Source: Candidatus Blautia intestinavium
Lineage (GTDB): Bacteria; Bacillota; Clostridia; Lachnospirales; Lachnospiraceae
Reading direction: 5' to 3'
Length of the DNA: 64,000 nucleotides
NCBI GenBank assembly: GCA_019113745.1
Contig: DXGV01000022.1
Location: forward strand, 31,523 to 95,522
The translations under genes and the position numbers were made by a program. The notes beneath the pieces are model-generated. The model did not search any database, had not been told where the DNA came from, and worked only from the letters and a program-made list of their open reading frames with translations. Each line of letters begins with the position of its first letter. Position 1 is the first letter of the stretch. Shown piece by piece: positions 1 through 63,762 of this stretch.

Positions 1-332
1 TCTTCCCACAGACGGATATGCGTAGTCTTTCCCACTCCGCTGGGAGCCGCAAATACATAAGCCTCCCCGTCCATGGAAATCGCCGCGGAATGCATCAGAA
101 AAGCGTCGTACTTTGCCAGCGCAAAACAGATATTCCGGTAAATACAGAGACTTTCACAGTAACCTTTCGAAAAACGGTTGTCTCCGTTCTGCTCCTTCAG
201 GATTTCTTCTTCTGTGACCGCTACCGTAAACGCAGGCTTTTCTTCTGTCTCGTAGCCCTCGCACAAACGCCGGATATAAGGATAGCGATTCTCAATTCCT
301 ATAGGGATATCCGCAATCTTAATGCAAAACAT
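1..332 (-). CDS. HPr kinase/PEPCK-like P-loop protein, RiPP-cluster type (partial, runs off left edge)
   Basis: Minus-strand reading from ATG at 332: MFCIKIADIPIGIENRYPYIRRLCEGYETEEKPAFTVAVTEEE...MHSAAISMDGEAYVFAAPSGVGKTTHIRLWE; Walker A APSGVGKTTH. Preceded by a GAGAGG RBS-like sequence. Confidence 0.75.
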   Translation of the reverse strand, partial: MFCIKIADIPIGIENRYPYIRRLCEGYETEEKPAFTVAVTEEEILKEQNGDNRFSKGYCESLCIYRNICFALAKYDAFLMHSAAISMDGEAYVFAAPSGVGKTTHIRLWE

Positions 333-440
333 TATATCCTAGCACCTCTCTGTCCTCTGTACTTTCTGCCCCGGCCAGTATACGCTGCAGCCTGAAACAA
401 TTCTGAAGCTTCATAATATTTCCGTTCTGCAGATAAACGC

Positions 441-489
441 AAAATAAAAAGCTGCCGGTATTTTCCACACTAAAGAAAATATCAGCAGC
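441..489 (-). terminator. Intrinsic terminator in the leader of the HPrK-like gene (riboswitch expression platform)
   Basis: Minus: GCTGCTGATATTTTC-loop-GAAAATACCGGCAGC followed by TTTTTATTTT. Confidence 0.75.
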
Positions 490-548
490 TGGCTGCCATT
501 CTCAGGCCCTGTAGCTTTGCGTCACAGCTTTTCAGCTGCTTTGCCTTT
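490..548 (-). ncRNA. Candidate c-di-GMP-I (GEMM-I) riboswitch aptamer
   Basis: Minus: GGCAAAGCAGCTGAAAAGCTGTGACGCAAAGCTACAGGGCC; has the GGCAAA / GAAA-capped P2 / GACGCAAAG signature; followed by a terminator. Confidence 0.75.
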
Positions 549-588
549 GACATAAATTATTATATGCTTCCGCACAATTTCTTTAGAT

Positions 589-618
589 ATTATAGCACAT
601 ATCTGTCCTATAAATCAA
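589..618 (-). promoter_or_regulatory. Candidate sigma-A promoter for HPrK-like gene leader
   Basis: Minus TTGATT-18 nt-TATAAT immediately upstream of the aptamer. Confidence 0.5.
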
Positions 619-621
619 TCG

Positions 622-2022
622 TCATTTTTTCTCAAATTTCGTGTTTACTTCTTCCAGCTTTCTGCGGATGCGCTCCACATATCCCTCTTTCCACATCCTG
701 CACATGTCCCGGTCGCAGCCCATCAGATTGTGCTCGCCTGTCAGCAGAGCCGCCGCCCGGCATCCTCCGCCGCATTCATAGCGGTATCCGCAGGAATCAC
801 ATTCCTTATTCGCCGCGAACAGATCCCCGACGCGGCTGTCCACAAACTGCATATAATAGCTGTCCCGCAGCCCTTTCCTTAAGCCTATATCCTGCACCTT
901 AGGAAAGCGTTCCTGATCCGGACTGGCCGTCATAGGCATACAGGGCAGGAGCCTTCCCTCCGGAGTAATATAGCAGGACCAGCGGGTTGCCCCGCATAAA
1001 TAACATTCTCTGCATTTTTCTGTTCCATCGTAATGTCTTACGCTCAGGGTCGCCGGTTCATCCCGCGACATCCTTGCAATGCCGCCAAATTCCAGGCTTT
1101 CTATCGGGCGTCCGGCCTCATAATACCACTCGATATAAGGAAGCATGGCGTCCACATACTCCTGCCACGTCAGATCATTTCCCTCGCTATGACGCCTCCA
1201 GAGATCTGTTTCATCCACATGAGCGGTTTTCAGCTCTGTGGCTCCCACCGACCGCAGCGTCTCCACCGTCTGAGGAATCGTATCCTTATTTCCACGGTGA
1301 ATACACATACTCACACTTGTATGAAATCCATGTTCATGACACAGCTTCAGCGCGCGCAGCGTCCGCTCTTCCGCTCCGGGAACGCCCCGCATCCAGTCAT
1401 GACATCCCGTACCGTCGAAGCTGATATTTATCTCCGGTTTAAGACCACGGCGTTCAAATTTCTCTAAAATCCTCTCATCTAACAGCCATCCATTTGAATA
1501 AATCTGCGCCACAAACATTTTGTGAGAAAGAATACGATCTATCAGTTTCCAGAAGTCTTTCCGTACAAAGGGCTCGCCGCCAGTAATGTCCACCCGCAGC
1601 ACACCGCACTCCGCCATCTGATCGATCAGGGCAAAAGCTTCCTCCGTGGAAAGCTCTCCAAGCATCGCGTCCGGCGCGTCCATATAACAGTGGCGACAGC
1701 GGAAATTACATCTGCCTGTAACGGACCAGAAAACTCTCCTGGTAAATCTGTTAGGGTAATACCGGTAATTCTGATCCGGATCCAGCGGAGACGTCTGAAC
1801 AGAAGCTTCAATGATCCCTTCTGATTCACACTTATGCAGGACTTCCAAAAATGTATCGTCCAAAAATTCCCCCGGTAGTTCCGTTTCTCCATCACAAAGC
1901 AGGAGCACCTGAAACATTTTCTGCGACAGCAGGCGCGTCGCATTCTCCGGGCGCTTCACCAACACCCAGGACATCTCCTCCCAGCCCCGCAGCACATAAT
2001 CGGGTTTTAATTTATAAAACAT
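622..2022 (-). CDS. Radical SAM/SPASM peptide maturase with N-terminal PqqD-like (RRE) region
   Basis: CNFRCRHC (CX3CX2C) radical SAM motif; C-terminal SPASM cysteines (CRECYLCG...CDSCGYRYECGGGC...CDRDMC); N-terminal PqqD-like segment. Confidence 0.9.
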   Translation of the reverse strand: MFYKLKPDYVLRGWEEMSWVLVKRPENATRLLSQKMFQVLLLCDGETELPGEFLDDTFLEVLHKCESEGIIEASVQTSPLDPDQNYRYYPNRFTRRVFWSVTGRCNFRCRHCYMDAPDAMLGELSTEEAFALIDQMAECGVLRVDITGGEPFVRKDFWKLIDRILSHKMFVAQIYSNGWLLDERILEKFERRGLKPEINISFDGTGCHDWMRGVPGAEERTLRALKLCHEHGFHTSVSMCIHRGNKDTIPQTVETLRSVGATELKTAHVDETDLWRRHSEGNDLTWQEYVDAMLPYIEWYYEAGRPIESLEFGGIARMSRDEPATLSVRHYDGTEKCRECYLCGATRWSCYITPEGRLLPCMPMTASPDQERFPKVQDIGLRKGLRDSYYMQFVDSRVGDLFAANKECDSCGYRYECGGGCRAAALLTGEHNLMGCDRDMCRMWKEGYVERIRRKLEEVNTKFEKK

Positions 2023-2052
2023 TGCCTGTCTCCTTAATAAAACAGGAAATCA

Positions 2053-2220
2053 CTATTTCCATGATCCCCCCGGACAGTCACCGCTGTTGCCCTTGCATCC
2101 GTTTCCATTATCCTGTCCATTATTACGACAGCCGCCTATATCTAATCCGCCGCTTGTGGTGATCACGTCCCGGTTCGTAAAATAAACAACCTCTGCTTCC
2201 GCTTTTTCATAATTCATCAT
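2053..2220 (-). CDS. Putative Cys/Gly/Asn-rich RiPP precursor peptide (55 aa; absent from the ORF track)
   Basis: Minus: MMNYEKAEAEVVYFTNRDVITTSGGLDIGGCRNNGQDNGNGCKGNSGDCPGGSWK*; GGGAGG RBS upstream; directly upstream of radical SAM/SPASM gene. Confidence 0.85.
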   Translation of the reverse strand: MMNYEKAEAEVVYFTNRDVITTSGGLDIGGCRNNGQDNGNGCKGNSGDCPGGSWK

Positions 2221-2285
2221 AATATGCGCCTCCCTTTTTCATATAAAAATTCTGTTCCACGTCATTTCTTCATGGAATAAAGCAA

Positions 2286-2315
2286 TAAAAAAAGCTGCAA
2301 CAATATAGTTGCAGC
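2286..2315 (-). terminator. Intrinsic terminator in the RiPP operon leader
   Basis: Minus GCTGCAAC-TATATT-GTTGCAGC followed by TTTTTTT. Confidence 0.85.
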
Positions 2316-2324
2316 CGAACGACC

Positions 2325-2410
2325 TTGTGGAATCAGATGAAAAATCATCCTCGCCCACCTAAGGTTCCTGACTTTGCGTCCCTGCATTTCTACAGGTTTG
2401 CCAAGGATTT
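2325..2410 (-). ncRNA. c-di-GMP-I (GEMM-I) riboswitch
   Basis: Minus: GGCAAACCTGTAGAAATGCAGGGACGCAAAGTCAGGAACCTTAGG; canonical GGCAAACC, GAAA tetraloop, GGGACGCAAAG; terminator follows. Confidence 0.88.
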
Positions 2411-2419
2411 ATTTTCTAA

Positions 2420-2449
2420 ATTATACGATACTGCATACTGTTCTGTCAA
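2420..2449 (-). promoter_or_regulatory. Sigma-A promoter driving riboswitch and RiPP operon
   Basis: Minus TTGACA (2449-2444), 18-nt spacer, TATAAT (2425-2420); both hexamers consensus. Confidence 0.85.
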
Positions 2450-2551
2450 TTCTAAAATCGTACAATTTAGATAAAATTTCACTTTTCGCTTTTCCAAAGC
2501 GCTGTTTTCCTTTATAATAAAAGAAAATATAACGCTTTACGGGGGCCAAAA

Positions 2552-3712
2552 ATGATCAACTATAAAAATCTTGAAGAATTATACACAGCCGGTTCTTATC
2601 TGGTGAAACTGCTGTCCGCTGTCCTTCACGAAGAAGAAGCGCCGCCTCTTCCTGAATCTCTAAACTGGAAGCTTATATATGATATGGCGAAGATGCATTC
2701 TGTAGAGACTATGGCTTTTTATGGCGCAGAGCCATTTATCAGAGATGATGCAGAACTTTATCAAAACTGGAAAAAGAGCCGGGATGCCAACATTGCCCAA
2801 AGCCTGCACCAGATAGAAGCACGGAAAGAAGTATTCCAGGCTCTGTATGAAGCGGGAATCCGCTTTCTGCCACTGAAGGGATACGAAATGAAGTGTCTGT
2901 ATCCCCGGCCTGAATTCCGCCAGATGGCAGATGTCGACGTATTGATCGATCCTGAAAATACCTCCCGCGCAAGAGAAATCATGATACATCTTGGATATCG
3001 GCAAAAAGAAGCGCTGCCGCATCACGACGAATACTTTCGCCCGCCTTTTGTGACTGTGGAGGTTCATCGGCAGATGCTTCTTGTAGGAGAATCCAGACAG
3101 GCATATTATGATAATATATGGGACAGAGCGCTTATCGATGAAGAAAATCCAGGCGGTTATAAACTCAGCCCGGAAGATTTCTATATTTATCAGATTGCAC
3201 ATTTCGAAAAACATTATAGTCTTATGGGCAGTGGTATCCGGTCTGCGCTGGATATCTATGTTTATTTGAATAAATTCAGGACAATTTTAAACCGAGACTA
3301 TATAAAAGAAGAATTTCAAAAACTTAACATTTATAATTTTGGCACAAAAATGGAATATCTGAGCCAGTTCTGGTTTTCTAAGCAGCAACCGGACATAAAA
3401 ATTAGTAAAGACGAATTAAATGAAATACAAAAAAACATTTTCCTTTCCGGCGTTTACGGATCACTGGAATTTTCAAGATTTAAAAAGATGTCTAATCTTC
3501 ATATAGAAAAGGGATTCAAACAAACTTTCCATTATTTCTGGACAAGGATTTTCACCAGAAAAAAAGACTTTAAAAATTCTTATCCTTTTCTCAGAAAGTA
3601 TCCCTTTCTTCTACCTTTTTGTTGGTTTCACAGACTTATTTACGTTTTACTGCATAAAAAGCAATCTATCAAAAGAGAACTTGAATTATATAAGAAAGTA
3701 AAGGAAAAATAA
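2552..3712 (+). CDS. Nucleotidyltransferase family protein (NTP_transf_5-like)
   Basis: LPLKGYEMKCLYPRPEFRQMADVDVLIDPENTSRAREIM...VEVHRQM pattern of uncharacterised NTP_transf_5 proteins often found in RiPP loci; GGGGG RBS. Confidence 0.8.
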   Translation: MINYKNLEELYTAGSYLVKLLSAVLHEEEAPPLPESLNWKLIYDMAKMHSVETMAFYGAEPFIRDDAELYQNWKKSRDANIAQSLHQIEARKEVFQALYEAGIRFLPLKGYEMKCLYPRPEFRQMADVDVLIDPENTSRAREIMIHLGYRQKEALPHHDEYFRPPFVTVEVHRQMLLVGESRQAYYDNIWDRALIDEENPGGYKLSPEDFYIYQIAHFEKHYSLMGSGIRSALDIYVYLNKFRTILNRDYIKEEFQKLNIYNFGTKMEYLSQFWFSKQQPDIKISKDELNEIQKNIFLSGVYGSLEFSRFKKMSNLHIEKGFKQTFHYFWTRIFTRKKDFKNSYPFLRKYPFLLPFCWFHRLIYVLLHKKQSIKRELELYKKVKEK

Positions 3713-3764
3713 GCAGTCGGTCCCTCTTATTCTAAAAAGGGACTGACTATATTTTTAAATATAC

Positions 3765-5261
3765 TTATTTGGATTTCAGCTTTTTTAAGTTTCTTTCTTC
3801 CTGCATTAATTTTATATATGTTTTTATCGTTTTGGATATTCCCATAATACGAATTCTGACCACCAATTTTCCCACTCTGTTAAATATCATCTTATTTATT
3901 CCGTGCTTTTTTTTAGCATATTCAATCCCATCCAGTTCAGGACATACATAAGCAATTAATTTATCCTGATGCTTTTTGACTCTCCTTTCCTGGATTGGAA
4001 AATCTGCAAGCATAGAAATAAGAAATCTTGAATTAACTGGCTGTAAAGAAGTAATATCTTCCATTATATCAAATGACTGTTCTATTGGCGAAAGCCAACT
4101 TGCATTTCTTTGTTCCCAAAAAAACCTGTCACAATCTGAAATACCAACCTGTTTTGTCTTTTCCAGCCATTCAAAATACGATTTCAATGACTTTTGAACT
4201 AATTCATTTGCAACAAAAAAACTGTATATACTCTCTATGTCCAGTTTACCTTTGTCATCTAAAAATTTCTGGTAATAGTTTGTGACCGTTTCCCAGACTG
4301 AACTTCTGAGAAGAACTATATTCCCATATTTCTGTACCAAATCACGATATTGACCATAAGCATAAAACCGTTTATCCTCGTCATCCGCCAATCCGCCAGT
4401 ATGCATTATATATTCCTTTTCTAATTCTTTAGAATACTTTTTTTTTCTAGGTATATATGTATATTTTTTCTTTAATGCCTTACAAAGCTTTTGGGGAATT
4501 TCTACATCTCCGTCTGATATTTTTTTATGGTCTAATGTATAGCAATCAAAATCTATTCCTGCATATTCTGCCAACGCAAGTAATGTTCTTGAATCATAGC
4601 CGCCTGTAAGGGCTATCAAAATTTTCTTTTCCGGAAACATATCCTGCAGATTATGTAATGAATTAGAAAAAAGTTCTGAAAAAGCTTCTATTCTTTCCTG
4701 CTCATCTTTATATCGGGGAATATGCGTCGCTAAAAGCTGTCGGCTGTTTATTGTCTGGTCGTTGTAATTATAAATCTGGCTGGGTAGCAACCGTTTGATC
4801 TGTTCATACTGAGTTAGAGGACCTGGAAGCCAATTAAAACCAAATGTAGGACGATATATAATTTGAGGTAACCCCATAATTTCTGCCAGCATCATACAAC
4901 TGCTGGAAATCCCCTCTCTGCTGTAAAAAATCCCCAGTAAACCAGTCGCATCCAGATAAATTTTTTCGTTTACAATCAACACGTATCTTCCGCACCAGGA
5001 TTCTTCCATCCTCAAAATCTCTTCTTCCGGTATATATCCTTCGTACTTTTCCGCCAGCTTTTCAATTTCAGATACGGGATCTTCCTTTTTTTCTTTTACC
5101 TGCCATGCAATACCAAGCAGTATAATCTCATATTGCTTATTTATATAAATATTTAAGTCCTTATGATAGCTTAAAATATAATTATTCTTTAGCTCAACAT
5201 AAATATAATCAGAACTGTGAATTTTTTTCTTTGCTATAATAAATTGTTTCTTATTGATCAA
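3765..5261 (-). CDS. Asparagine synthase-like protein of the polysaccharide cluster
   Basis: ALTGGYDSRTLLALA ATP-PPase loop; degenerate N-terminal glutaminase-like domain; EPS cluster context. Confidence 0.75.
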   Translation of the reverse strand: MINKKQFIIAKKKIHSSDYIYVELKNNYILSYHKDLNIYINKQYEIILLGIAWQVKEKKEDPVSEIEKLAEKYEGYIPEEEILRMEESWCGRYVLIVNEKIYLDATGLLGIFYSREGISSSCMMLAEIMGLPQIIYRPTFGFNWLPGPLTQYEQIKRLLPSQIYNYNDQTINSRQLLATHIPRYKDEQERIEAFSELFSNSLHNLQDMFPEKKILIALTGGYDSRTLLALAEYAGIDFDCYTLDHKKISDGDVEIPQKLCKALKKKYTYIPRKKKYSKELEKEYIMHTGGLADDEDKRFYAYGQYRDLVQKYGNIVLLRSSVWETVTNYYQKFLDDKGKLDIESIYSFFVANELVQKSLKSYFEWLEKTKQVGISDCDRFFWEQRNASWLSPIEQSFDIMEDITSLQPVNSRFLISMLADFPIQERRVKKHQDKLIAYVCPELDGIEYAKKKHGINKMIFNRVGKLVVRIRIMGISKTIKTYIKLMQEERNLKKLKSK

Positions 5262-23078: not shown

Positions 23079-24716
23079 TTACTTTCTTTTATCATTTGCG
23101 TCTGTGTCCTGATTGCTTTCCTCCTGGAACAGAAAATCTACAAACTCGCCGCTGGAAGTAACCTCCCGCTTTTTCTCCGTTGGTTTTTCTTCTACATCCG
23201 CCGCAAATCCTGCAACAAGAGAATTGTCTGAATCTCCATTCTTTATGCCAAAGCTGTTTTCATCCCCGGCCTTTCCCATTTTTACGAGAGGATCGCCGAT
23301 CGTATTCAGCTTGACTTCAGCTTTTTTGATATTTTCTCTCTCTTTTACAGGGTTCTTAACGCCTTTTTTACTTACTTTTATACCGTTCACCACACAGCCA
23401 AGAAGCTGGACTCCCGACTTTTCCACTCTCTCCAGGGCGTCCTTGATCTCCTGCAAAGTAGCGTTATCATAGCGGACTACAAACAGCGCCGCGGACGCGA
23501 TCTGATTCAGGCTCATGGGATCTGCCGTCAGACCCACAGGGGCCGTATCCATCAGAACGTAGTCGTACCCTTCCGCGATCTTCCTGATCACCTGGAAAAG
23601 ATTGCTGTCAAGCGGTATTGCGCTTCTCTCCAGGATCGTAGGTATGATATCCAGATAACCTGTCAGAGATATAATAGCTTCCTCCTTCGTGATATCGCCT
23701 GTATAAAATGCGTTCAGAGAATGTTCATAATCCACACGCTTCAGGAACATACCTCCAAGATTTGGATTCTTCATATCCAGATCCACCAGGAGGACTTTCT
23801 TTTCCAGATCGGACAACTGTACTGCCAGATTTGCAAGAATGCTGGTTTTCCCTTCATCTTTTAAAGTGGAAGTGATGTAAATAATATGCGGGCCGGGTTT
23901 CCGCAGATGATTCTGTATGATATGGGCGGCAGAGGAGAAGCTTTCTCTTACCTCTGTCCCGATCCCGTCGTCTACAAGAATAGAATCCTTCTTTTCAAAG
24001 TAGGCTTTGTCATCTGCTATCTCACAGAGTACCTCCAGACCGTACTCACTCTCAATTTCCTCCACATTCAGCAAAGTCGGGCGCATGATCAGTTCAAGAA
24101 GGATGATTCCCAGGCTGAGCCCGAAGCCAAGCAATGCCAGATATCCCCAGAGTACCACATTGACGCTTCCTCCAATCAGATATTTTGCGCTGGGCGGGTT
24201 GATCACCGCCGTATTTCCGATATTCAGCGTCTCCTTTAACACCGCCGGCGCCTCATTATTGAGCGCCGTAAGGATATTGATTCCCTCATCCGCGCTTCTC
24301 CAGTACAGCGACATTTCGATGATCTGTGTTTCCTCATATGGAGTCAGCGTCAGATTATCCGCGATATCTTTCGTGGTAACTCCAAGAAGTCCCAGAGAAT
24401 CGATGATCTCATCCAGCATTTTATCGCTTTTCAGGACATAGGAAACTGTATCTGCCAGGTCCGTCGCCATATCAATATCATTAATACTGGGAAAGTCATA
24501 TCCTGAGGTAAACAGTCCGTTGTCTGTCTGCGTATTCACAGAAAACGCGCTTGTAACAAGGTATTCCTTGCTCATTTCTCCCTGCAGATAGGAAATCCCT
24601 GAAAGTACCATGCCTACAAGAAGACCTGCCACCGTCATACCAATGATCAGAAGACGATGTTTGATTATTCCATATAAGATATCTGCAATTCTGATATGAA
24701 TCCCGTTATTTCTCAC
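23079..24716 (-). CDS. Wzz-type chain-length determinant fused to BY-type tyrosine kinase
   Basis: Two TMs around an extracellular region; YITSTLKDEGKTSILANLAVQLS, VLLVDLDMKNP, YDYVLMDTAPV. Confidence 0.9.
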   Translation of the reverse strand: MRNNGIHIRIADILYGIIKHRLLIIGMTVAGLLVGMVLSGISYLQGEMSKEYLVTSAFSVNTQTDNGLFTSGYDFPSINDIDMATDLADTVSYVLKSDKMLDEIIDSLGLLGVTTKDIADNLTLTPYEETQIIEMSLYWRSADEGINILTALNNEAPAVLKETLNIGNTAVINPPSAKYLIGGSVNVVLWGYLALLGFGLSLGIILLELIMRPTLLNVEEIESEYGLEVLCEIADDKAYFEKKDSILVDDGIGTEVRESFSSAAHIIQNHLRKPGPHIIYITSTLKDEGKTSILANLAVQLSDLEKKVLLVDLDMKNPNLGGMFLKRVDYEHSLNAFYTGDITKEEAIISLTGYLDIIPTILERSAIPLDSNLFQVIRKIAEGYDYVLMDTAPVGLTADPMSLNQIASAALFVVRYDNATLQEIKDALERVEKSGVQLLGCVVNGIKVSKKGVKNPVKERENIKKAEVKLNTIGDPLVKMGKAGDENSFGIKNGDSDNSLVAGFAADVEEKPTEKKREVTSSGEFVDFLFQEESNQDTDANDKRK

Positions 24717-26422
24717 GACTTATTTCCTTTCCTGACCTTTTTTCTTATGATTACGGCAACTGCGGATATGGCCAGTATAACTGCGCCGCATCCCACAATA
24801 ATCACAATGATATTCTGCATTGTCCAGACAGAAACAGAAAATTCCTGCAGTGCCTCGTCCTCAGAAAAGTCAAATTCATATTTCTTTTCTTCATCCCCCT
24901 TCAGCAGAACGTAGTATCCGCCCTCTGGAAGATCTTCAAAAGTAGTATCCGTACCGTTTGTCGTCCATGTCTGGATCAGGCTGCCGTCCTCGCTGTATAA
25001 GGACAGGCTGTAGTCTGAAACAGGCTTTCCTAAAAGTTTATCTGTTACATTGATGTTGACGCGCGGGATATAATTTGTAAACTCAAACGATGCTTTCGCT
25101 TCGCCGTCGATGCGTCCGTCCTCCGTTACAGTGATCTCCACAGGCGTATCGTCAAATCTGTAATCGTCAGGCGCTCCGACCTGCTGCAGTTTATAGGTTC
25201 TGTTTTTCTCAAGATCTGTAAAGACAAGTTCTCCGTTCTCATCTGTTTCCGCCTCCTGATTAAGCTCCGGATAATTGTCGCAGCTGAGAAGAAATTCTGC
25301 CCCTTCCAGTCTCTGGCTTGTATACACCTCGTCCGACAGAGTCAGCTCTATTTTTGTTTTTTCACAGGAAAATTTCACAGCCGCCGGCGTACTTCCGTCT
25401 TTCTCTTCCACTGTTCTCTCCGCCGTGTCTTCTATGCTGGCGTAATACTTCGGTATCTCGTCCTGGGAAATAATATAACTGCCCAGGTACAGTTCCTTAC
25501 TCTGGCCCTGCCCGTCTTCGTCCATCACGATTGTATCTGCCGTCTCATCTTTCGCATAACGCAGGGTTTCGTCTGAGGTGATGATATCCTCCGCTGCGGT
25601 AACTTTAAAAGTACCGTCAGAAACCGGTTCCTGTGTTTCCGCGTCTGTCAGCTCGACAGGAATAATATTTTTCACCGGGGAAATCGCGATGGAAACCACA
25701 TAGGGATCCGGCCAGTCGTATACGTCGTCGATTTCAAAGTTCACGGCTTCCGCCAGATCGTATCCTTCCACTTCGGATATCTGTTTAAAATAGTAATTTC
25801 CCTCGTCGATTTTCTCCGGAAGGTAGAATACGCCCGCTTCTGTAGTCGCGTAATTCCTGTATTCTGTTTTTTCCGGATAATATGTATTCAGGAAACGGAG
25901 GGAACCGCCGTCGTCCCCGCCTTCTTCTTCGTACAATTCAAAGGTAATGCCTGCCTGACGGATAGCGCGTCCGGTCTCTTCGTCTACTACCGTGGCATAG
26001 ACGGCGGCTTTTCCCCACTCGTCGCCGCTGGTAGGAGGATAAGGGAATTCATAGTCTCCGCCGTAGTCGTCGCCGCCTCCGCCGCCACCTCCGCCGGATA
26101 CGATATCCTCTTCCTCCTCGTACTCTTCTTCACCGTCGCCTCCGCCGCCGGCGCCGTCCCAGTCATCGTCGCCGTCATCAGAATCGCCCCCGAGATCATG
26201 GGCATGATCATCGATCGTATTTCCCAGTTGATTATCTACCGTATAGCCGTTTCCCTCTTCCGCATCTGGCAGAGTATCTTCTGGTATCTGCATTAAATAT
26301 AAGATCAAAAGGAGGATGATCAATACCAGTACGAGCACGAGACCTGTCATCATATCTGTGTTTGATTGCCAGTAATTGATCTCCGAATGGTTTTTTTTGT
26401 TTCTTTTCATTCTTCTCTCCAA
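24713..26422 (-). CDS. MotB/ExbD-like membrane protein with Gly/Asp/Glu-rich linker, several SpaA/Cna-B-like domains and C-terminal TM
   Basis: N-term YWQSNTDMMTGLVLVLVLIILLLILYL (MotB-like D-x-M-T before/at TM); repeated prealbumin-like units (DEETGRAI..AGITFELYE, RLEGAEFLLS..TDENGELVFTDL, DYSLSLYSEDG); C-term IIVIIVGCGAVILAISAVAVIIRKKVRKGNKS. Confidence 0.72.
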   Translation of the reverse strand: MERRMKRNKKNHSEINYWQSNTDMMTGLVLVLVLIILLLILYLMQIPEDTLPDAEEGNGYTVDNQLGNTIDDHAHDLGGDSDDGDDDWDGAGGGGDGEEEYEEEEDIVSGGGGGGGGDDYGGDYEFPYPPTSGDEWGKAAVYATVVDEETGRAIRQAGITFELYEEEGGDDGGSLRFLNTYYPEKTEYRNYATTEAGVFYLPEKIDEGNYYFKQISEVEGYDLAEAVNFEIDDVYDWPDPYVVSIAISPVKNIIPVELTDAETQEPVSDGTFKVTAAEDIITSDETLRYAKDETADTIVMDEDGQGQSKELYLGSYIISQDEIPKYYASIEDTAERTVEEKDGSTPAAVKFSCEKTKIELTLSDEVYTSQRLEGAEFLLSCDNYPELNQEAETDENGELVFTDLEKNRTYKLQQVGAPDDYRFDDTPVEITVTEDGRIDGEAKASFEFTNYIPRVNINVTDKLLGKPVSDYSLSLYSEDGSLIQTWTTNGTDTTFEDLPEGGYYVLLKGDEEKKYEFDFSEDEALQEFSVSVWTMQNIIVIIVGCGAVILAISAVAVIIRKKVRKGNKS

Positions 26423-27966
26423 TTCATCATCTTCTCGAACTCTTCAATAGGAACCGGCTTTGAAAGATAAAATCCCTGCCCCTCCGTAATTCCGTTTTTA
26501 CGGAGAAGAGACATCTGTTTCATGCTTTCAATTCCTTCCGCCATAAGATCTACCTGCATGTTTCTTGCCTGCTCCGCAATCGATGTGATATTAACATCTT
26601 CATGGCAAAATCTGAGGTCAAGTTTATATGCGTCCGCACAGGGCGCTTCTTCCCCGGAATAAAGTTCAAAAAAGGCTCCTTTGAAACCGTCCACAACAAC
26701 CCGGAAACCTCTTTGCTGAAGTGTTTTCTCAAATTGAAGCGCGACGTTTCTTGATTCAAGGTATGCGTTCTGCGCAATATCAAACTCCACATATTTTGGC
26801 GGCAGCCTGTATTTCTGGATCATATCGGTAAATACTTCTGAAATGTCCAGTGCCAGAACGTCCGTCTTCGATATATTTACCGCAATAGGCACCGGATGCA
26901 GCCCCGCATCCACCCACTCTCTGATCTTTGCGCAGACTTTATCCCATATGTACTGATCGAGCTTTGCAATATAGCCGTTTTTTTCCAGAATAGGTATAAA
27001 CACCGACGGCGCGATAAGCCCTAATTTCGCGTGATTCCAGCGCACCAGAGCCTCGGCGCCAGTGATCCTTTGCGTATTGAGATCAAATCTCGGCTGAAGA
27101 TAGAATGTAAATTCTCCGTTTTTCAGACCTGTCATAATCTGCGGCATCAAAACAGACTCGCTGCCAGCGTTACTGAACATCGCGCCGTTGGAATTTGCAA
27201 GGGAATATCCTTCATTGCGGGGAAGATGTTTCAATTTGTCCTGTATCTTCTCCATATCTTTCTTCTGGGAGTATCTTTCCTGTTCCTCCACAGACGGAAT
27301 GATATTTCTCTGGAACGACGCCGTAAACATACCCAGATCGCGCAGCATGATATTCCAGAGGAATTTATAAACTATATTAAAAAGAACAGAAAGGATAACG
27401 CCGGAAATAGAGGTATAGAACGCTACCCTGATACCGTCGAACAGCGTCTGTATACTTGCCAGCGTCGCGTCCACTGAGCTGATCTGCACGCTGCTGATAC
27501 CTGTGATCAGACCGATGAATGTTCCCAAAAGTCCCAGACCTGTCAGGGTGCCCGGTATCTGAAGCACGACTCCCTGCCAGCACCTCACGGAAATCTCTTC
27601 CTCATTGATCATCTCGTCAATCCCCTCGATGATCATATTATTTTTTCTTTCTTCTTCGACCTTCTCTCTGTACTGCTCAAATAAACGGTCCAGCACTCTC
27701 TGGTTAAAAAAATTATCCATTTTCACAACCGCCAGCCACGGCATGGACGTCTGGGTTTTCTGCGCAGTCAGAATATTCCTGGCCGCATGATTAAATCCCG
27801 CGCTGTAATTTATGACAGGGAACACTCCGAGAAACCCTCCCACAACAACGATTCCTGTCATTACGCCGCCGAAAATCCGGGAGAGAATATCGGGCGCCAG
27901 AACTGTCAAAGCCACTGCCGCGCCAACCACAATTAAAAATGCTCCGTACGAAATCCACTTTTTCAT
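26407..27966 (-). CDS. MotA/TolQ/ExbB-like proton channel fused to degenerate EAL domain
   Basis: GVVLQIPGTLTGLGLLGTFIGLITGIS...GIRVAFYTSISGVILSVLFNIVYKFL (MotA/TolQ/ExbB core); then GAEALVRWNHAKLGLIAPSVFIPILEKNGYI...AVNISKTD...VVVDGFKGAF...MAEGIES...QGFYLSKPV (EAL). Confidence 0.85.
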   Translation of the reverse strand: MKKWISYGAFLIVVGAAVALTVLAPDILSRIFGGVMTGIVVVGGFLGVFPVINYSAGFNHAARNILTAQKTQTSMPWLAVVKMDNFFNQRVLDRLFEQYREKVEEERKNNMIIEGIDEMINEEEISVRCWQGVVLQIPGTLTGLGLLGTFIGLITGISSVQISSVDATLASIQTLFDGIRVAFYTSISGVILSVLFNIVYKFLWNIMLRDLGMFTASFQRNIIPSVEEQERYSQKKDMEKIQDKLKHLPRNEGYSLANSNGAMFSNAGSESVLMPQIMTGLKNGEFTFYLQPRFDLNTQRITGAEALVRWNHAKLGLIAPSVFIPILEKNGYIAKLDQYIWDKVCAKIREWVDAGLHPVPIAVNISKTDVLALDISEVFTDMIQKYRLPPKYVEFDIAQNAYLESRNVALQFEKTLQQRGFRVVVDGFKGAFFELYSGEEAPCADAYKLDLRFCHEDVNITSIAEQARNMQVDLMAEGIESMKQMSLLRKNGITEGQGFYLSKPVPIEEFEKMMNWREE

Positions 27967-27999: not shown

Positions 28000-28031
28000 A
28001 AAAAGCTGCATTTGAATTCATCAAATGCAGC
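28000..28031 (-). terminator. Intrinsic terminator in EPS operon leader
   Basis: Minus GCTGCATTTGA-TGAAT-TCAAATGCAGC followed by TTTTT. Confidence 0.85.
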
Positions 28032-28034
28032 CAG

Positions 28035-28100
28035 TCAATCATAGGAATCCCCTTAGATACTAAACTTTGCGTCCCTACATTTCTATAGGTTTGCCTCCCT
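28035..28100 (-). ncRNA. c-di-GMP-I (GEMM-I) riboswitch
   Basis: Minus: GGCAAACCTATAGAAATGTAGGGACGCAAAGTTTAGTATCTAAGGGGATTCCTATGATTG; canonical core, GAAA tetraloop and CUAAG...UAUGA receptor-like strands; terminator follows. Confidence 0.9.
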
Positions 28101-28190
28101 ATTAACCTTTGACATAAGCCGCTGGGATTTTATGCCATAATCCTGTTTAATTATGTCAATGGAAAACGTATAAACGTCCTTATGTTTTAC

Positions 28191-28219
28191 ATTCTACAAT
28201 ATCCGCCTTTTTCTGTCAA
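28191..28219 (-). promoter_or_regulatory. Candidate sigma-A promoter for EPS operon leader
   Basis: Minus TTGACA-17 nt-TAGAAT overlapping the GGDEF gene stop. A second TTGACA lies about 60 bp downstream with a weaker -10. Confidence 0.7.
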
Positions 28220-29760
28220 CTTAAATCATTTCCATTTTCGGGATATTTTTCATATTTTCCGAACTCGCATACCCGTTTTTTTCCGGCCTTCTTTGCCATA
28301 TACAGCGCTTCATCCGCGCATTGATAGAGTTTTTCATAATCCCATTCCGCGTTTTCCGTCACGGCGAACCCAATACTGCATCCTGTTTCTATCTTCTGTC
28401 CGTTCCAGCAGATATCGGCCATATGTCTGATCACTTTTTCCGCATATTCACTGATATATGCCGTATCTTCCCCTACCTTCAAAAGCACCATAAACTCGTC
28501 CCCGCCAAACCGTCCTATTTTTGCGTTTTCAGGAGCGTATTTTACCATGATATCCGCCACCTGCTTCAGCACATGATCGCCGCAGGGATGTCCGTATGTA
28601 TCGTTTATGTTTTTGAAATCATCCATGTCCAGGATCAGCATGGCTATCCTGTGGGATTTCAGATGCAGAGATTCCAGCCAGTTCCGGCCGCAGTCACCTA
28701 TGGAAGCCTTATTTAAAAGGCCTGTGGCGTCCAGAGTGGCGTTTTTCTGAAACTCTATAAGCTGTTCTTTTTCTTTTGTGATATCATTCATAAATCCTAT
28801 CGCGTACATCATACTCTCGTCAGATGATGAGCGCTGACAGGCTACCTGTATTTTGAACCAGCGCTGTATATTGCCTCTGGTCAGAAGCTTGATCTCAAAT
28901 TTCTGATAGGCGGCTCCCCTTCGCACCGCTTCCATACATTCCCGTATCTTTTTCTTTTCTGCGTCTTCTATCGTCAGACAACTGTTCAGGAACTGGCTGA
29001 AACGGGGAATCTCATAATCATTTTCAAAAAAATCCCTCCAGTTTTTTGAAAACACCAGCTTATCTTTTTCCGGATCCCACTGAAAGGTGATAAAGCCCGC
29101 GTTCTGGCTGATAAGATCATACTGTTCCTTTGTAAGCCAGAAACGTCTTGTATGCAGTTTTTCCCCTATTTCATGAATCTGCCTGCTCTGATCCAGTTCA
29201 ATACAGATATGCCGGAACCGCACGATACAGATCACGCTGGCCATCAGCGCGGTAAGCGTATAATTAATTCCATCTCCGGAAAAAAGAGAAATCTGCGCCG
29301 CCGTCATAAAAATAAAATAATTTGCCCAGATGATGATCAGACCATATACGGGCTCCACGATCACCAGCGCGGAAAAGGCCACAAGCATGGTAGACGCCAT
29401 TGTCACATGCACATGGTCGGATCTGAAAATGTCATATATATTCAGGCAGGTATTCCAGAAAAGCACGATACCTATATAAATAAGTGAAATCCTGTTTCCT
29501 TTCCTGAAAGACTTCTCTTTCTGTCTGTCATAGATCAGATACAGTATGGAACAAACCAGCAAAAAAGTGTAAAATCCGAAATAGATCCTGTTATTTAACG
29601 TATTCAGTCCGCTGTCGGAGCCAAACAGTACTCTGATTATATTAAACCCTTCCACAGCCAGGCAGAACACAGAGGCGACAATACACAAAAGTCTGTTATT
29701 CCGGAACGCCTCTTCTATATATTTTTCTTTTCCAACATCAGAAATTATGCTGATTTTCAA
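28216..29760 (-). CDS. Membrane PAS-GGDEF diguanylate cyclase (probable TTG start at 29760; ATG-initiated ORF extends to 29814)
   Basis: RFGGDEFMVLL active site; ILDMDDFKNINDTYGHPCGDHVLKQVA; PAS region; several N-terminal TMs. Confidence 0.9.
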   Translation of the reverse strand: MKISIISDVGKEKYIEEAFRNNRLLCIVASVFCLAVEGFNIIRVLFGSDSGLNTLNNRIYFGFYTFLLVCSILYLIYDRQKEKSFRKGNRISLIYIGIVLFWNTCLNIYDIFRSDHVHVTMASTMLVAFSALVIVEPVYGLIIIWANYFIFMTAAQISLFSGDGINYTLTALMASVICIVRFRHICIELDQSRQIHEIGEKLHTRRFWLTKEQYDLISQNAGFITFQWDPEKDKLVFSKNWRDFFENDYEIPRFSQFLNSCLTIEDAEKKKIRECMEAVRRGAAYQKFEIKLLTRGNIQRWFKIQVACQRSSSDESMMYAIGFMNDITKEKEQLIEFQKNATLDATGLLNKASIGDCGRNWLESLHLKSHRIAMLILDMDDFKNINDTYGHPCGDHVLKQVADIMVKYAPENAKIGRFGGDEFMVLLKVGEDTAYISEYAEKVIRHMADICWNGQKIETGCSIGFAVTENAEWDYEKLYQCADEALYMAKKAGKKRVCEFGKYEKYPENGNDLS

Positions 29761-29769
29761 CGTTAAATT

Positions 29770-29779
29770 CCCCCCCCCC
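29770..29779 (-). repeat. G10 homopolymer at SD position of the diguanylate cyclase
   Basis: Ten consecutive C on + strand (29770-29779), 9 nt upstream of TTG start. Confidence 0.9.
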
Positions 29780-29819
29780 GCCACACATACGGCTATACCG
29801 CATATTTTTTCCATGCACT

Positions 29820-62608: not shown

Positions 62609-63762
62609 TAAGCGTACAAAAGACAACACGCTCCAGTCTGCGTAATTTCAACGATTTTCAGCACTATCCTCATTCAGTGTATCCTGCTTTCCATCGTCTG
62701 TCCTGTAAATCGCTGAAATTCCTGCGGTTGGAGTCTACGAGGCGAAAAGTAGTTTATTTCTGTTTCTTTAAGATACCTGATTATGATTGGCTCATGCAGG
62801 GCGTACGCGTAATGAAATTAACGCAAAAGAAACAGAAATCAGTCCTTTATTGGCCGTATTATCCCTCTTGTACACTGTTTTTTTAATCATTTCAGCGATA
62901 TCATTTATAGGCGTTGTCCAACGACTTCAACCTTTCTCGTCTAAATCGTACTTTGTGGCTTATATACCGCCCGGAATCAAATTTAACTTGTATAGCCGTA
63001 CATTTAAAACTTCAACACGGTTTAAGATCTCAAATTTAATCGCCAAACCGTATTTTCCCGGAGAAAATACGGTTATATTCTCTCTTCTGACCTCTGAACC
63101 GTATCTTCTCGGAGAAAGTACGGTTATATTCTCTCTTTTGACCTCTGAACCGTTTCTTCCCGGAGAAAATACGGTTATATTCTCTCTTCTGACCTCCAAA
63201 CCGTATTTTCCCGGAGAAAATACGGTTATATCCCTTTTTCTGTTCTCCGGACCGTTTCTTCCCGGAGAAAATACGGTTACATGCTCTCTTTTGACCTCTG
63301 AACCGTTTTCTCCCGGAAAATGTACGGTTACATCCGCGTTTCTGTTCTCTGGACCGTATCTTCCCGGAGAAAGTACGGTTACATGCTCTCTTTTGATATC
63401 CGGACCGTTTCTTCCCGAAGAAAGTACGGTTACATCCTCTTTTCTGATATCCAGACCGTATCCTTCCTGAAAATGTACGGTTAGAAAGTTCATAGTGATA
63501 CCACAGCGGTATCTTTTATAATTTTGTACAGCTCATATTGGGAATTCAATTCCAGAAACCGTATTATGTACGGTCGAAAATTTAGAACAACTTGATATAA
63601 CCGTATCGACTGCTTAAATTAGCTTTCCATACGGATTATAATAGATTTTCTTGTATGAATAGCGCCAGTGTACAATAAGTACAATAGAAGAAAACGGCAT
63701 ATATCAGCGACAATACCGTCAATGAATGGATAATTTAGAGAGTGTTGTCCTTTGTACGCTAA
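62609..63762. mobile_element. Approx. 1.15-kb element bounded by 25-bp imperfect terminal inverted repeats, no evident transposase
   Basis: Left TAAGCGTACAAAAGACAACACGCTC; right (rc) TTAGCGTACAAAGGACAACACTCTC; 22/25 identical. Confidence 0.6.
63046..63483. repeat. 51-bp tandem repeat array, eight full units plus partial, each with an inverted repeat
   Basis: Units begin at 63046, 63097, 63148, 63199, 63250, 63301, 63352, 63403, 63454; consensus AACCGTATTTTCCCGGAGAAAATACGGTTATATTCTCTCTTYTGACCTCYG. Confidence 0.95.

Follow-up and report, generated by a model that had tools for sequence, protein, structure and literature searches.

Operons and features of the locus

The window, i.e. the entire stretch of 64,000 nt analysed here, derives from a chicken-gut Blautia relative, and coordinates on its minus strand are numbered on the window forward strand. 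Two adjacent operons of a putative RiPP system are encoded on the minus strand. Operon 1 reads, in minus-strand order, promoter, riboswitch RS1, terminator, the 55-aa precursor A1 and the radical SAM enzyme rSAM A, whereas operon 2, which is headed by RS2, continues beyond the window. A third riboswitch, RS3, precedes an exopolysaccharide operon. The features are as follows:

1..332, minus strand: 5' part of the HprK-like kinase gene, the first gene of operon 2, which continues beyond the window
441..490, minus strand: RS2 terminator, with the C92 equivalent paired and the 5' arm overlapping the aptamer
481..555, minus strand: RS2, c-di-GMP-I riboswitch aptamer (RF01051, 67.6 bits)
589..618, minus strand: promoter of operon 2, TTGATT-18-TATAAT with TG before the -10 box (promoter scan)
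622..2022, minus strand: rSAM A, predicted radical SAM/SPASM peptide maturase of 466 aa (CxxxCxxC; C-terminal CxxCxxxxxCxxxC)
2025..2046, minus strand: hairpin between precursor A1 and the maturase
2053..2220, minus strand: candidate RiPP precursor A1, 55 aa, MMNYEKAEAEVVYFTNRDVITTSG leader and GLDIGGCRNNGQDNGNGCKGNSGDCPGGSWK (ORF; precursor alignment)
2286..2316, minus strand: RS1 intrinsic terminator, stem 2316-2293 plus U-run, with the C92 equivalent paired and the 5' arm overlapping the aptamer
2307..2412, minus strand: RS1, c-di-GMP-I riboswitch aptamer (RF01051, 52.4 bits; covariation)
2420..2449, minus strand: sigma-70 promoter of operon 1, TTGACA-18-TATAAT
2552..3712, plus strand: NTP_transf_5 nucleotidyltransferase, transcribed divergently and part of the cluster in related genera
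26407..27966, minus strand: MotA/ExbB-EAL fusion, the first gene after RS3, in which the catalytic DDFG reads DGFK
28004..28032, minus strand: RS3 terminator stem, pairing the C92 equivalent
28023..28105, minus strand: RS3, c-di-GMP-I riboswitch of the exopolysaccharide operon (RF01051, 61.6 bits)
28216..29814, minus strand: diguanylate cyclase with an intact GGDEF domain, just upstream of RS3 (domain search)
Locus L012, 11855-6833: operon 2 beyond the window, with PqqD, S26 peptidase, precursor A2, rSAM B and ABC transporter

In a preliminary description of this DNA, the range 2286-2449, which on the minus strand is bounded by the U-run and the -35 box, was read as a c-di-GMP-I riboswitch with a consensus promoter, a GEMM-I core and a terminator upstream of a 55-aa Cys peptide and its radical SAM maturase. 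All of these elements were recovered. The promoter TTGACA-18-TATAAT at 2449-2420 matches the consensus at 12/12 positions and is the sole such site in a scan of window positions 1-4000. The proposed search with RF01051, in which a missing aptamer hit was to count against the claim, was run and returned RS1 with an E-value of 2.2e-7 (whole window and library) as a match to the full-length model (1-87); its score, like those of RS2 and RS3, lies above the gathering threshold of 35 bits. The terminator stem, with the arms GGCTGCAAC/GTTGCAGCT, is followed by TTTTTT, and the peptide and the maturase correspond to the ORFs 2220-2053 and 2022-622, both on the minus strand. RS2, RS3 and a second precursor/maturase pair, which is located just outside the window, are additional to the single riboswitch of that description. 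The three switches are the only c-di-GMP-I matches in the assembly (2.73 Mb, about 83% complete), and all of them are found in one region.

A candidate RiPP family

Precursor A2 (MLSQNTTANTPYEKAEAEVVYFDNSDVITTSGEVAGCVTWSNQNGVACQFGLTAS) carries the same DVITTSG leader as A1, and rSAM B is 64% identical to rSAM A. In an alignment of 11 precursors, the leader residues Y, KA, E, F, N, DVIT and S as well as two Cys residues are invariant, and a maturase follows in the same contig after 10 of the 11. The arrangement is that of a RiPP cluster, with a short precursor composed of a conserved leader and a variable core located beside a modifying enzyme. The maturase contains the CxxxCxxC motif and the C-terminal SPASM cysteines and gives profile matches to SkfB, PqqE and 5wgg; its best PDB match is SkfB, and 5wgg and 5v1q, which we take to be CteB and SuiB, respectively, were also matched. 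The HprK-like kinase has a conserved SGxGK(T/S)TH motif, and both the P-loop and the HprK/PEPCK fold were recognized. A model of the L020 homologue (pLDDT 93) gave HprK/P proteins as top Foldseek matches, with an E-value of 5e-6 and a probability of 1.0 and with low TM-scores (0.3-0.5).

For whole precursors, dN is 0.15-0.22 and dS, where computable, 1.2-1.8, and the leader codons vary mostly at third positions; the precursor is under purifying selection. Taken together, the sequence data support the assignment of the 55-aa ORF as a RiPP precursor, which is presumably matured. We consider it quite unlikely that the ORF instead codes for an unmodified peptide, for example a secreted signal or a structural peptide. 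The peptide has no match among NCBIfam or Pfam models and no known mature product, as might be expected for such a peptide, but it combines a leader with a Cys core, the invariant leader residues and the two Cys are shared by 11 precursors, 10 of them with a maturase in the same contig, and PqqD, an S26 peptidase and an ABC exporter are encoded within the cluster. Hairpins are found between precursor and maturase at the same place in the two related species described below, and one might speculate that this hairpin is a partial terminator, which perhaps favours the precursor over the enzyme and sets their ratio.

By composition, the nearest named cassette among the gene sets compared is SynChlorMet (ScmC, ScmD, ScmE), in which HprK-like and PqqD-like proteins and two radical SAM/SPASM enzymes likewise occur together. 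However, the scores for ScmC, ScmD and ScmE are 26, 17 and 107.5 bits, below the cut-offs of 125, 100 and 400, and the locus described here additionally codes for an S26 peptidase, an NTP_transf_5 protein and an ABC exporter and has a DVITTSG-type precursor instead. The maturases of sactipeptides and ranthipeptides (SkfB, CteB, StsB) share the radical SAM and SPASM domains and a Cys-rich core, but similarity to them is low and below every equivalog cut-off. Paeninodin-type lasso clusters contain an HprK-type kinase and an NTP_transf_5 protein, and the accessory genes for an HprK-like kinase, PqqD, a nucleotidyltransferase and an ABC exporter are indeed a point of likeness; in contrast, the operons found here have a radical SAM maturase and contain neither lasso B2 nor a cyclase.

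An asparagine-synthase-like gene (3765-5261, minus strand) with a TGGYDS loop and no confident Pfam match lies between the RiPP and the polysaccharide genes. It was considered as a lasso cyclase and rejected; as it has only a weak PF01171 match and is absent from the cluster in other genera, we assigned it to the polysaccharide genes.

The genomes used for comparison are mostly MAGs. The cluster, consisting of HprK-like kinase, PqqD, S26 peptidase, precursor, maturase, nucleotidyltransferase and ABC exporter, is present in whole or in part in Blautia, Faecalibacterium, Gemmiger and Candidatus Faecivivens. Among 392 Clostridia genomes, no maturase beyond that of the own genome was found at E 1e-90. 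Maturase A of Candidatus Blautia excrementipullorum (L013 7744-9132) has an in-frame TGA at a Trp codon that is conserved in most other maturases, which is either a sequencing error or the sign of a damaged gene.

Riboswitch authenticity, ligand and direction

Seven aptamers (three RS1, two RS2 and two RS3) were aligned, and the Vc2 numbering was mapped onto them by us. The equivalents of Vc2 G20, A47 and C92 are invariant in 7/7 aptamers. Helices P2 and P3 both covary, with both-sided changes at 6/6 pairs of P2; the 20 both-sided cells counted in total were matched by 0/500 shuffles, and slid structures lose pairing. A chance aptamer is ruled out by the score, the covariation and the conservation in three species. 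We therefore assign RS1, RS2 and RS3, on sequence grounds, to the c-di-GMP-I riboswitches, which, from knowledge of the family, would bind c-di-GMP. With the full-length model match, the G20/A47/C92 equivalents, P2/P3 and a terminator-based expression platform, they resemble the known c-di-GMP-I elements (GEMM-I, RF01051). The difference lies in their targets: those known or sampled are motility, adhesin, pilus, GGDEF/EAL and polysaccharide genes, whereas here a RiPP precursor and a maturation operon follow.

The cGAMP variant of the aptamer has an A at the G20 position. As all seven aptamers carry a G, c-di-GMP is favoured over cGAMP as ligand, and it is hardly credible that another cyclic dinucleotide, such as 3',3'-cGAMP, is sensed instead. 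The point in favour of such a ligand is that cGAMP aptamers have the same fold (PMC9262584).

The promoter with its 18-nt spacing, RS1, the terminator, the precursor and the maturase are kept together in Candidatus Blautia excrementipullorum (G025, equivalent to L013) and Candidatus Blautia faecigallinarum (L028), i.e. in three Blautia species. The three-switch layout is repeated on one contig of the former. In the latter, the cassette is a free-standing pair in an unrelated neighbourhood, in which the next genes resemble moaC and tatD (translations read by eye). The riboswitch-bearing maturases form a single clade with a support of 100/99. This joint conservation, together with the G20/A47/C92 equivalents and the covariation in P2, supports the central claim of the preliminary description, a c-di-GMP-I riboswitch upstream of a RiPP precursor.

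RS1 deviates from the consensus in that the A two bases before GGC (A9, corresponding to Vc2 A18) is replaced; it also has a long P3 loop, and its score is the lowest of the three window switches. It might hence be a decayed or relocated riboswitch without a present role, with the precursor being expressed independently of c-di-GMP, and clusters in other genera do lack an aptamer. We regard this as very improbable, since three species share RS1 and its terminator and show compensatory changes in P2, the cassette has been retained in Candidatus Blautia faecigallinarum despite the different genomic neighbourhood, and the ligand-binding residues are intact. No riboswitch was found near the RiPP cluster in relatives outside the Blautia A clade, and the cluster has none in Faecalibacterium, Gemmiger and one Blautia (G029). 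Control by c-di-GMP as a general trait of this RiPP family was rejected on these grounds, and it is not essential to the RiPP.

In 7/7 aptamers, the 3' edge doubles as the 5' arm of the terminator, in which the C92 equivalent is paired, so that aptamer and terminator exclude each other. The terminator stems have energies of -14.5 to -20 kcal/mol. By the same rule, this overlap is present in 21/40 other Blautia c-di-GMP-I elements. Class I c-di-GMP switches can work in either direction (PMC6366702). In the ON switch of pilM, a cGAMP riboswitch of Geobacter metallireducens, the terminator captures the cytosine with which the ligand pairs, so that it cannot coexist with the aptamer (PMC9262584). 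The switches described here share this arrangement, but their predicted ligand, based on G20, is c-di-GMP, and they occur in other bacteria and in front of other genes. Because the terminator pairs the ligand-contacting cytosine in RS1, RS2 and RS3, all three are predicted to be transcriptional ON switches, with the direction following from knowledge of the family. The converse, that the riboswitches are real but OFF and the peptide is made at low c-di-GMP, seems unlikely to us. In C. difficile, all seven functional class I riboswitches are of the OFF type (PMC6366702), but an OFF switch of the Cd1 type requires a separate antiterminator strand and its aptamer and terminator coexist (PMC9262584), whereas they are exclusive in all seven cases here.

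What is directly observed comprises the genes, the covarying and conserved RNA elements, the terminators that overlap the aptamers and the purifying selection on the precursor; from these we propose the following mechanism. When c-di-GMP is scarce, the terminator would form from the aptamer's 3' edge with its ligand-pairing cytosine, and transcription would end ahead of the precursor gene. When c-di-GMP is abundant, the ligand-bound aptamer would keep its 3' strand, which would block the terminator and allow RNA polymerase to read through. Read-through of operon 1 would yield precursor A1 and maturase A, and that of operon 2 the HprK-like kinase, PqqD, the S26 peptidase, precursor A2, maturase B and the ABC exporter. 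Judged by their families, PqqD-type domains could then recognize the leader and the radical SAM enzymes could introduce cross-links at Cys, followed by leader cleavage and export, and the RiPP could in this way be coordinated with the biofilm state. We consider it very likely that an ON-type transcriptional c-di-GMP-I riboswitch leads each of three operons, two of them adjacent and belonging to one RiPP system, the third for exopolysaccharide.

Links between c-di-GMP, RiPP and polysaccharide genes

Five GGDEF and three EAL domains are encoded in the assembly. In the RS3 operon, the MotA/ExbB-EAL fusion is accompanied by genes for a membrane protein containing SpaA domains and a Wzc-like protein, besides other polysaccharide genes. 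With its altered motif, the EAL domain of the fusion looks catalytically dead. At 24713-27966 (minus strand), this MotA/ExbB/TolQ channel-EAL (DGFK) fusion is followed by the SpaA-domain membrane protein, which is MotB/ZorB-like, and the pair recurs in Candidatus Blautia excrementipullorum and in Faecalibacterium gallinarum. One possibility is that the pair forms an ion-channel motor that is gated by c-di-GMP and serves polysaccharide secretion.

Around the sampled Blautia and other clostridial c-di-GMP-I matches, a maturase homologue was found at 0/140 loci with a maturase profile that recovers the known cases as positive control, and RiPPs as a common clostridial target of these riboswitches were rejected. 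Downstream of about 40 sampled Blautia elements, we noticed no RiPP; GGDEF/EAL, sortase-type surface protein, polysaccharide and other genes are located there. In Blautia overall, c-di-GMP-I elements occur in 40/65 genomes with up to 11 each, and many have a short form of 76 nt and precede genes for large surface and GGDEF/EAL proteins.

In F. gallinarum, two c-di-GMP-I elements are located some 30 kb away from the RiPP cluster, one of them upstream of a MotA-EAL polysaccharide operon. The other (L032 6586-6677, minus strand) lies upstream of a homologous peptide-type ABC exporter (34% identical) and an NTP_transf_5 gene, and exporter and nucleotidyltransferase are missing from the RiPP cluster itself; the switch-led exporter may serve the RiPP. 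By the same rule as above, no terminator overlapping C92 was found at this exporter switch, and its layout differs from that of RS1-RS3. A second kind of c-di-GMP link is seen in a Clostridia MAG (L027 8558-12379), in which a 1273-aa EAL protein is encoded directly after the RiPP maturase.

Since the RiPP operons and the adjoining polysaccharide operon share the same type of switch, peptide and biofilm are probably induced together by c-di-GMP. Somewhat short of an even chance, in our estimate, is the wider proposal of a c-di-GMP biofilm programme of gut Clostridia, in which parallel ON riboswitches turn on an exopolysaccharide operon together with a RiPP that has two precursors and belongs to an undescribed family, the peptide being a component or a guard of the biofilm. 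If this holds, the F. gallinarum exporter and nucleotidyltransferase under c-di-GMP would be a second, rearranged case, and a second messenger would act on a RiPP pathway directly by way of an RNA switch, with neither a two-component nor a quorum-sensing regulator in between. A role of the peptide in biofilm life would be suggested, and raising c-di-GMP would be a practical route to inducing a silent gut RiPP. An apparently unnamed RiPP family, with a DVITTSG leader and HprK-like kinase, PqqD, S26 and NTP_transf_5 proteins, common to Blautia, Faecalibacterium and Gemmiger, would also be added. The riboswitch class and radical SAM RiPPs are both known; the connection between them and the RiPP family itself appear to be undescribed. 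Consistent with the earlier statement that no characterised c-di-GMP riboswitch is known to control a RiPP pathway, no paper describing one was found in a full-text search with most subscription journals outside its scope.

Elsewhere in the window, overlapping ORFs on both strands at 62787-63493 encode short protein repeats in tandem, each about 14-15 aa long.
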